Assembly: GCA_028877205.1 (NCBI GenBank)
Contig: JAPPHY010000016.1
Coordinates: 1-64,000 of the forward strand
Length of the DNA: 64,000 nt
DNA from: Chloroflexota bacterium
GTDB taxonomy: Bacteria > Chloroflexota > Dehalococcoidia > Lucifugimonadales > UBA2985
Direction of reading: 5' to 3'
The position numbers and the translations under genes were made by a program. Shown piece after piece: positions 16,619 through 47,749 of this stretch. Under the pieces are notes generated by a model. It did not search any database, was not told the DNA's origin, and saw only the letters and a list, made by a program, of their open reading frames with translations. Numbering within the stretch: position 1 is the first letter of the stretch; each line of letters begins with the position of its first letter.

Positions 16619-17644
16619 TCAGCCGCCAAGTCTGGACAGGATCGTAGACACCGACGGCCTGTCGCCCTTGGAGGCGCCTACGTACTTCCACAGGATTTCG
16701 CCGTCCACGCCCACGATGAAGGTTGCGGGCGAGGCCTCGCTGTCGCCCTGAAGGTTGTAGACTCCGTATGACGAGGGTACCTGTGCCGACAGGTCGTACA
16801 GGACGGGGAAGGGAATCTCCAGTCCCGTCACGGCGAACTCCGCATCGCTGAGGTTGTCCACGCTGATTGCCAGAACCTCAGCGTTCAACCCCTGAATCTG
16901 CCCGTACACACCTTTCAGCTCGCCGAGCTGAGCTCTGCAGAACGGTCACCAGAACCCTCGGTAGAACACGACCACAACCTGCCTGTCTCCCCTGTACGAC
17001 AGCAGCGAGTGGGACGACCCGGAAGCGGAGGGCAGGCTGAAGTTGGGCGCCAGGTCGCCCACGTCCGTGCCGATGGTGCGAGCCGGTGTCGGCGTTGAAA
17101 CGGGCACGGGCGTTGCAGTTGGGACAGGCACGGGAGTCGCGGTGGGCACGGGCACAGGCGTCGCAGTTGGGACAGGCACGGGAGTCGCGGTGGGCACGGG
17201 CACAGGCGTCGCAGTTGGGACAGACACGGGCGTCGCGGTGGGCACGGGCACCGGAGTCGCAGTTGGCGCGGGCGGTCGGGTGGCCGTAGGTAGAGGTGTG
17301 GGGGAGGGAACGGCTGTCGCGGTCGGAGCTTGTGTCGCTGTTGCCTCTACGGTCGCGGTTGGCTCAGCCGTCGGCATCGCGAATGGCAGTGGCGATGGCG
17401 TTGGCGTCGGGGCGTCGGTCGGAGGCGGCGTGTCCGTTGGAGAGAGCGTCGCCGTTGGGATGGAAGTGGTGATCGGAAGCGGCATAGCTGTGGGCTGAGG
17501 GGTGTCCGTGGGCGCAAGCGTGGGCGACGGCTCGGCGTGTGCGTCCATGGGCGTGTTCACAGGCGGCACAGGCGTGTCCTCAGTGCCGCAGGCGGCGAGG
17601 CCAAGAGAAACGATGCCAAGCAGCAGGACTGCAAACGTGCGCAT
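16619..17644 (-). CDS. Peroxiredoxin-like lipoprotein with in-frame UGA, probable selenoprotein
   Basis: Read through the UGA at 16948-16946, this is one 341-residue protein. Residues 1-19 are a lipoprotein signal ending in LAAC. A long Thr/Pro/Val-rich linker with 8-residue repeats (PTATPVPV) runs to about 185. The C-terminal AhpC/TSA-like thioredoxin fold starts with GDLAPNFSLPSASG. The active-site strand reads VVVFYRGFW-UGA-PFCRAQL, where relatives have W-C-P-x-C-R, so UGA sits exactly on the first redox Cys. The same frame continues through ELKGVYGQIQGLNAEVLAISVD, PFPVLYDL and SPATFIVGVDGEILWKYVG to a normal domain end. A hairpin follows the UGA. It probably reduces peroxides or disulfides outside the cytoplasm. 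A nonsense mutation is the main alternative. Confidence 0.8.
16916..16930 (-). promoter_or_regulatory. SECIS-like hairpin after the UGA of the peroxiredoxin-like gene
   Basis: CAGCTC-GGC-GAGCTG forms a six-pair stem with a three-base loop starting 15 bases after the UGA, placing the apical loop about 21-24 bases downstream. Bacterial SECIS elements lie inside the coding region at about this distance. The sequence does not prove SelB binding. Confidence 0.5.
17098..17272 (-). repeat. 24-base tandem repeats encoding a Thr/Pro/Val linker
   Basis: Near-identical 24-base units, in alternating pairs (48-base period), encode PTATPVPV repeats in the linker between the lipid anchor and the redox domain. 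Such arrays change length readily. Confidence 0.85.
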
Positions 17645-46368: not shown

Positions 46369-47163
46369 CTAGCTGCCCGCGCCGCTCGCCAGGTCGGCGA
46401 ACACCTTGGGCCAGTCGCCCTCGCCCTCGCCGAGGCCGGCGCGATAGGTGATGACACCGTTGTGATCGACGGCGACCTTCGTGGACTGCCTGATGATTTC
46501 AAGGCTGCGCAAGACGTTGTTGTCGACCACTGCGACCGGGAAGGGGAGCTCCTCCTTGGCGCGATGGTCCTCCAGCTTGCCGATTCCCTCGGTCAGGTCC
46601 TGGCCAATGGCGTACAGGTCAACGCTCTTCGAGAACTCCGGGTAGTCCAGCTTCAGGCGCCGCAACTCGGCGCGACATACCGGTCACCACGTTGTGAAGA
46701 AGTAGAGGAAGACCGGCTTGCCTTGGTGCGCCAGCAACTCCGTCGACACCCTGCTGCCGTCCACAAGAGTCATCTCGAAGTGAGGCAGCGTGTTGCCTAC
46801 GTTGACCCCGACGGGCGGGGCCGATGGCGCAGCGGTTGCCGTGGGCGCTTCGGTCGGGTCGGCCGGCGGCTCGGTGGGGGAGGCGGCGAGAGTGCCGGAG
46901 ACGGTGGCTTCGGGTTCAAGCCCCGCAGACGGCTCGGTTGTTGCGCTGACGGATCCAGTTGTTGGGTCGGCCGGCGTGGCGGTTGGTTCGGCAGCGGGTG
47001 CGGTTGTTGCCGTAGCGGCGGGCGCCTCGGTGGGTGCGGTGGTGGCCGTTGCCGGAGTGGTCGCGGTTGGTTCTGGATCGGAACCACATGCCGCGCTCAC
47101 GGCGAACAGTAGGACTGCGACCAGTGCCAGGATGCGTAACGCTGGGTTGCGCCGGACGGTCAT
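46369..47163 (-). CDS. TlpA/thioredoxin-like lipoprotein with in-frame UGA, probable selenoprotein
   Basis: Read through the UGA at 46686-46684 this is one 264-residue protein. It starts with a lipoprotein signal (VAVLLFAVSAAC), a Thr/Ala/Pro-rich linker to about 125, then a thioredoxin fold (VNVGNTLPHFEMTLVDGSRVS). The active-site strand is VFLYFFTTW-UGA-PVCRAELRRLK, where TlpA-like proteins have W-C-P-x-C, so UGA replaces the first active Cys (residue 160). The frame continues with VDLYAIGQDLTEGIGKL, LPFPVAVVDN and VAVDHNGVITYRAG to a normal end. A 6-bp hairpin follows the UGA. It would exchange disulfides or reduce peroxides outside the cytoplasm. A premature stop is the alternative, but the precise position and a second case at 16946 argue against it. 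Confidence 0.82.
46657..46673 (-). promoter_or_regulatory. SECIS-like hairpin after the UGA of the thioredoxin-like gene
   Basis: GCGCCG-AGTTG-CGGCGC forms a six-pair GC-rich stem with a five-base loop containing GU, starting 10 bases after the UGA and with its loop 17-21 bases downstream. Distance and loop fit bacterial SECIS elements. Confidence 0.6.
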
Positions 47164-47395: not shown

Positions 47396-47749
47396 TGGTG
47401 GAGACGGGGGAGAGTCGAACTCCCCGTCCAGAGAGCTTCCCGCTGAAATCTACTACAGGCTTGTCCGGCGCTTGATTCTCGCTACCCCGGTCTCCCTGCC
47501 GGCCGGAGTACCCGGGTAGCCAGCCGGTGGTCTTGGTCCCTCGCTACCGGCGTTGCGCGGGCTGCACCTCGACTTATGGCGCCCACTCCTTACCTTCGAG
47601 GAGAGGTGAGGGTGGACGTGGCAGCCGTGTTAGGCCGCCAGGGCTACTTGCTTTTCGCCAGTTACTTTTTTGCCGCCTTGTTCACGGGGTGGACGGCACC
47701 CCGGCCTGCAATTCCGCGAGACCACCCCCTGTCGAGACCACGCGTCCCC
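47396..47749 (-). ncRNA. ssrA: Transfer-messenger RNA
   Basis: A 354-base tmRNA on the minus strand. Acceptor ends GGGGACG / CGTCTCC-A-CCA pair, the T arm GGGGAGTTCGACTCTCCCC is present, and the CCA is encoded. The open frame GGC AAA AAA GTA ACT GGC GAA AAG CAA ends in GTA GCC CTG GCG GCC TAA, giving the tag GKKVTGEKQVALAA after the charged Ala. It rescues stalled ribosomes with SmpB, whose gene lies 145 bases upstream. Confidence 0.95.

Follow-up and report, generated by a model that had tools for sequence, protein, structure and literature searches.

Selenoproteins with a UxxC motif have already been catalogued, in both TlpA-like and AhpC/TSA forms. The thiol-disulfide isomerase-like selenoprotein from the Sargasso Sea (cd02966, TlpA-like, UxxC; PMC1088965, listed in PMC13188914) resembles the protein described here in its TlpA-like fold, its UxxC motif, its marine metagenome origin and the bacterial SECIS behind its UGA; it comprised only four sequences in 2005, the available portion of that report names no lineage, and the likeness is one of published descriptions (PMC1088965). 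Similarly, the Prx-like thiol:disulfide oxidoreductase selenoprotein (PF00578, UxxC or UxxU; WP_010940744.1, PMC9312934) shares the Pfam AhpC-TSA assignment and the UxxC motif, but, compared by description, the present protein is nearer to ResA than to Prx by fold and profile. ResA, CcmG and TlpA have the same fold (4nmu, 1st9), a WCxxCxxE motif and a membrane-anchored extracytoplasmic domain, which is also predicted here; in contrast to them, the present protein replaces the first Cys by Sec and the cis-proline by Ser or Ala, and its genome is one in which no CcdA or DsbD was found. Etrx1 and Etrx2 of Streptococcus pneumoniae are likewise lipoproteins with a thioredoxin fold, and Etrx structures are among the fold matches, but they carry Cys instead of Sec and work with CcdA and MsrAB2 as partners (PMC3914529).

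The gene in question lies in a window of 64,000 nucleotides, the whole stretch of DNA analysed, from a Chloroflexota bacterium of the class Dehalococcoidia whose genome assembly is 2.0 Mb and 96% complete. It is almost certainly a selenoprotein gene, a reading drawn from genome comparison, because the Sec machinery is present, the UGA stands at an identical codon in relatives, the frame continues behind it, the SECIS covaries, and two of the three close Cys homologues come from genomes that lack SelA.

Gene layout and the in-frame UGA

The earlier note placed a TlpA/thioredoxin-like lipoprotein, with W-UGA-P-V-C-R in its thioredoxin-fold domain, at 46369-47163. The coordinates are correct; what had been left unsaid is that the gene is read from the minus strand. 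A plus-strand reading of 46369-47163 was rejected, a meaningful protein being absent from it. The TGA is found at 46686-46684, within TTW-U-PVCRAEL, as described. It is the single in-frame TGA of the gene and corresponds to residue 160 (context FTTW-U-PVCRAEL), so that a table 11 reading stops after 159 residues. The features are as follows.

46369..47163, minus strand: predicted selenoprotein gene including its stop codon, encoding 264 aa when UGA is decoded as Sec
47178, minus strand: candidate alternative start TTG, ten bases after GAGGAGG, which would add MSAQA
47086..47163, minus strand: predicted signal peptide with lipobox-like SAAC (Cys26), from the sequence and a modelled helix at 8-18
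46810..47085, minus strand: low-complexity Thr/Ala/Pro/Glu linker, of varying length among homologues (alignment)
46372..46809, minus strand: thioredoxin-fold domain, ResA/TlpA-like (PF00578 match 122-240, PDB comparison, model)
46684..46686, minus strand: in-frame UGA, putative Sec160, first position of UxxC (translation, homologue alignment)
46675..46677, minus strand: Cys163, second UxxC residue, invariant across the family (alignment)
46657..46673, minus strand: bacterial SECIS hairpin with a stem of 6 bp and the loop AGUUG, UGA-to-loop spacing 16 nt
46664..46666, minus strand: GUU of the SECIS apical loop, G21 T22 T23 invariant in 27 sequences

It is plausible that the true start lies five codons earlier, at TTG 47178. 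Directly upstream of the gene is a tmRNA gene (47396-47749, minus strand, 138.8 bits, tag GEKQVALAA). The window also holds another selenoprotein gene (16619-17644, minus strand, UGA at 16946-16948), which encodes an AhpC/TSA lipoprotein with the motif FWUPFCRAQL; its frame later hits a further TGA (16619-16621), beyond which the open frame goes on.

Fold, active site and electron partners

The label of a TlpA/thioredoxin-like lipoprotein is backed by Pfam, by PDB comparison and by the predicted fold. In Pfam, AhpC-TSA gives the best match (55 bits), followed by Redoxin (43 bits), while against PDB sequences ResA ranks first for the single sequence and second for the profile. AlphaFold2 modelled the domain with a pLDDT mostly of 92-98, and the best fold match of the model is ResA (4nmu, 1su9), with TM 0.85-0.89 over the target. 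The ResA model NF002854 scores 48.4 bits and its cut-off of 170 bits is not reached; the DsbE cut-off is likewise far above the NCBIfam score.

The alignment shows the TlpA/ResA-like C/UxxC active site behind a Trp, and Cys163 and W251 are invariant in the family alignment. From the motif alignment, Glu166 would be the counterpart of ResA Glu80, and this ResA-like Glu occurs in 19 of 23 members. At the cis-proline position before beta-strand 3, the 23 members, Cys forms included, have Ser (16), Ala (6) or Asp (1). It has been reported that the cis-proline of the thioredoxin fold is very widely conserved, that it may preclude metal binding, and that Arg takes its place in peroxiredoxins (PMC2757866). 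Its absence from the family argues against routine disulfide-reductase chemistry.

Meanwhile, the usual electron partners were sought. Neither DsbD/CcdA (PF02683) nor VKOR is detectable in the source genome, and DsbD/CcdA is also missing from several complete or near-complete Sec-form relatives, e.g., G009, G014 and G018; within the order, DsbD_TM is patchy, and just 13 of 60 relatives have a match above the cut-off. A standard reductase role would thus lack its usual partner. One DsbD_TM match (G039:C81:8192-8734) itself contains one in-frame TGA and is possibly another selenoprotein.

These results bear on what kind of selenoprotein is encoded. That it serves mainly as a Prx-like peroxidase, or as a redox protein that binds a metal or a cluster, instead of as a disulfide reductase of the ResA/TlpA kind, is a tenable if somewhat doubtful alternative, for which the AhpC-TSA match, the Ser or Ala that 22 of 23 members carry instead of the cis-proline and the failure to find DsbD/CcdA and VKOR in the source genome all speak. 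However, the peroxiredoxin PxxxTxxC/U motif is absent, FTTWUPVC standing at the active site, and no family member has Arg at the cis-proline position, whereas the UxxC pair together with Glu166 is thioredoxin-like and the best fold match is ResA, not Prx.

Conservation of the UGA and its hairpin

The gene was compared with its best homologues carrying one TGA in frame in 60 relatives, and the alignment shows TGA exactly at the Sec160 codon in 24 loci besides the window gene. One of these, L049 in G025, looks related to the 16619-17644 gene, with the UGA at the same place, and was set aside as a likely relative of that gene, leaving 23 genomes of the order. When 400 genomes of the phylum were searched with a profile, two further UGA members came up, G115 and G227 (173-193 bits), after which scores drop to 103 bits or less and mostly belong to ordinary Cys TlpA-like proteins; the identical UGA codon is therefore present in 25 other genomes, 23 from the order and two from elsewhere in the phylum. 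Tandem Sec-form duplicates (L034, L035 and L038, in G014, G046 and G009) each have their own UGA and SECIS. A scan of genome contigs yielded nothing but distant Cys homologues from Woesearchaeota and a single Omnitrophota fragment. A conserved gene neighbourhood was sought across the loci and not found, a neighbour being common only to pairs or small sets; at some loci we read the neighbour as a Cys TlpA gene that has the cis-proline, or as a gene resembling antibiotic-biosynthesis monooxygenases.

The earlier note had looked to a frameshift or a TGG codon in related strains, or to a missing Sec pathway, as signs against selenocysteine. No frameshift was found in the relatives. Cys codons, TGT or TGC, occupy the Sec160 position in L026, L039, L040, L050, L052 and two Woesearchaeota, and TGG in none of the aligned homologues. 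The source genome contains SelB (345 bits), SelA (552 bits), SelD (366 bits) and tRNA-Sec (70 bits), all above curated cut-offs, and its SelD (L008, G000:C7:68355-69275) is itself a selenoprotein with an in-frame UGA at the active site, GU-ASK. Among genomes of the order that carry the Sec form, all but G044, a fragmentary genome, have SelA above the cut-off. SelA is absent from two of the three genomes with a close Cys homologue, G034 (97% complete) and G045 (91%); G026 has Cys together with SelA. In the tree, the Sec form of G008 and the Cys form of G045, two genomes of one family, come out as well-supported sisters, and this pair reads as a natural Sec/Cys exchange accompanying the loss of the Sec machinery. 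The tree is too unsettled for counting Sec/Cys switches, and G008/G045 is the only well-supported pair of Sec and Cys sisters.

A 6-bp GC hairpin with a GU-containing loop downstream of the UGA had also been described, and it is present as GCGCCG-AGUUG-CGGCGC, 11-27 bases past the UGA (46673-46657). This same hairpin is what RNAfold predicts at minimum energy (42 nt, -17.7 kcal/mol, z -2.1; hairpin alone -10.5 kcal/mol). The published criteria for a bacterial SECIS are an apical loop of 3-9 nt, an upper stem of 4-16 bp, G within the first two loop positions, a spacing of 16-37 nt and an energy of at most -7.5 kcal/mol (PMC13188914); the hairpin agrees with all four published structural rules, having a loop of 5 nt, 6 bp, G in second place and a spacing of 16 nt. 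The idea that SECIS features are shared by both window genes holds for these general bacterial rules and fails for the sequence: a common SECIS sequence was rejected, since the loops and spacings differ (AGUUG and 16 nt here, GGC and 21 nt in the 16619-17644 gene). The GC-rich window has 1722 TGA triplets, counting both strands; 18% of them are followed by a hairpin fitting generic bacterial-SECIS rules and 2.7% by one of at least 6 bp with a G[GU] loop, so the hairpin by itself is suggestive only. The case goes beyond chance because the UGA recurs at the same codon in 25 other genomes and the hairpin covaries.

Covariation was assessed in a gapless alignment of 27 Sec sequences, L049 left out, with stem columns 14-20/24-30. 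Standard pairs make up 83% of the stem, compared with 34-62% when the partners are slid by 1-3 columns; two-sided changes occur in six of the seven stem pairs, e.g., C-G to U-A and G-C to A-U, giving 22 two-sided change cells in the stem vs 0-6 in the slid controls, and the covariation score is 0.351 against 0.138 +/- 0.022 in shuffles. In addition, the loop GUU spans codons +6 and +7. Of 21 Sec genes, 20 write Leu at +7 as TTG or TTA, compared with 61 of 329 Leu codons in the rest of these genes (p 4.5e-13, which is optimistic as the sequences are related), and GAG encodes Glu at +6 in 20/20 cases vs 197/287 in the rest of the genes (p 7e-4). Judging from codon usage, selection acts on the RNA beyond that on the protein and keeps the loop GUU even though this requires a rare Leu codon.

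It can be seen from the above how the remaining explanations fare. That the UGA is a genuine stop, a sequencing or assembly error in a Cys gene (TGC/TGT), or the mark of a decaying gene is extremely improbable: TGA is one base from TGC and TGT, and Cys homologues exist, but 25 other genomes carry the same UGA with a covarying hairpin, and the frame is conserved on both sides of it, as the earlier note had proposed: the reading frames that follow it stay open over a constant length, 101-104 aa in nearly all homologues, and in them third codon positions change more than second positions in 6/7 pairs compared, which fits coding constraint. Reassignment of UGA in the lineage, e.g., to Trp, with no part for selenium, is more improbable still, as nothing beyond the in-frame UGA itself speaks for it, the UGA aligns with the catalytic Cys and never with Trp, the preceding Trp is written TGG in 22 of 25 UGA loci, and tRNA-Sec, SelA, SelB and SelD accompany the covarying SECIS.

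Proposed function and meaning for the lineage

The selenoprotein reading of the earlier note is thus supported by the conserved UGA, the complete Sec pathway and the covarying hairpin. As a whole, a selenoprotein that is an exported lipoprotein and acts as a UxxC oxidoreductase or peroxide reductase is very probably the right description. SelB with Sec-tRNA(Sec) would bind the hairpin right behind the UGA, leading to the insertion of selenocysteine; the product would be exported, lipidated and anchored in the membrane, with the Thr/Ala/Pro linker keeping the soluble ResA/TlpA-like thioredoxin domain off the membrane. The Sec160/Cys163 pair would most likely serve an extracytoplasmic thiol-disulfide oxidoreductase or a thiol-dependent peroxide reductase, in which Sec160 would attack the substrate and Cys163 would resolve the selenylsulfide. 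Counted against this description are the missing DsbD/CcdA and cis-proline, the Sec form without full SelA in G044, and the Cys form with SelA in G026.

A more far-reaching proposal, which we consider rather unlikely, is that this is a lineage-wide selenolipoprotein family of a Dehalococcoidia order in which the loss of the cis-proline and the absence of DsbD/CcdA mark a chemistry unlike that of ResA/TlpA, such as peroxide reduction or a metal or Fe-S cluster at the open UxxC, fed by some other transmembrane electron route.

The version of this lineage and its distribution appear to be undescribed. The reviews of prokaryotic selenoproteins that were searched do not mention Chloroflexi, and among the papers searched there was none in which "selenoprotein" and "SAR202" occur together, the order being probably the marine SAR202 group. 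Automatic annotation that takes UGA for a stop will split such genes in two or miss them, so that selenium use goes unseen throughout an order of uncultivated Dehalococcoidia. Within this one order, the family provides Sec and Cys variants as a natural series, together with decay of the SECIS and loss of SelA.
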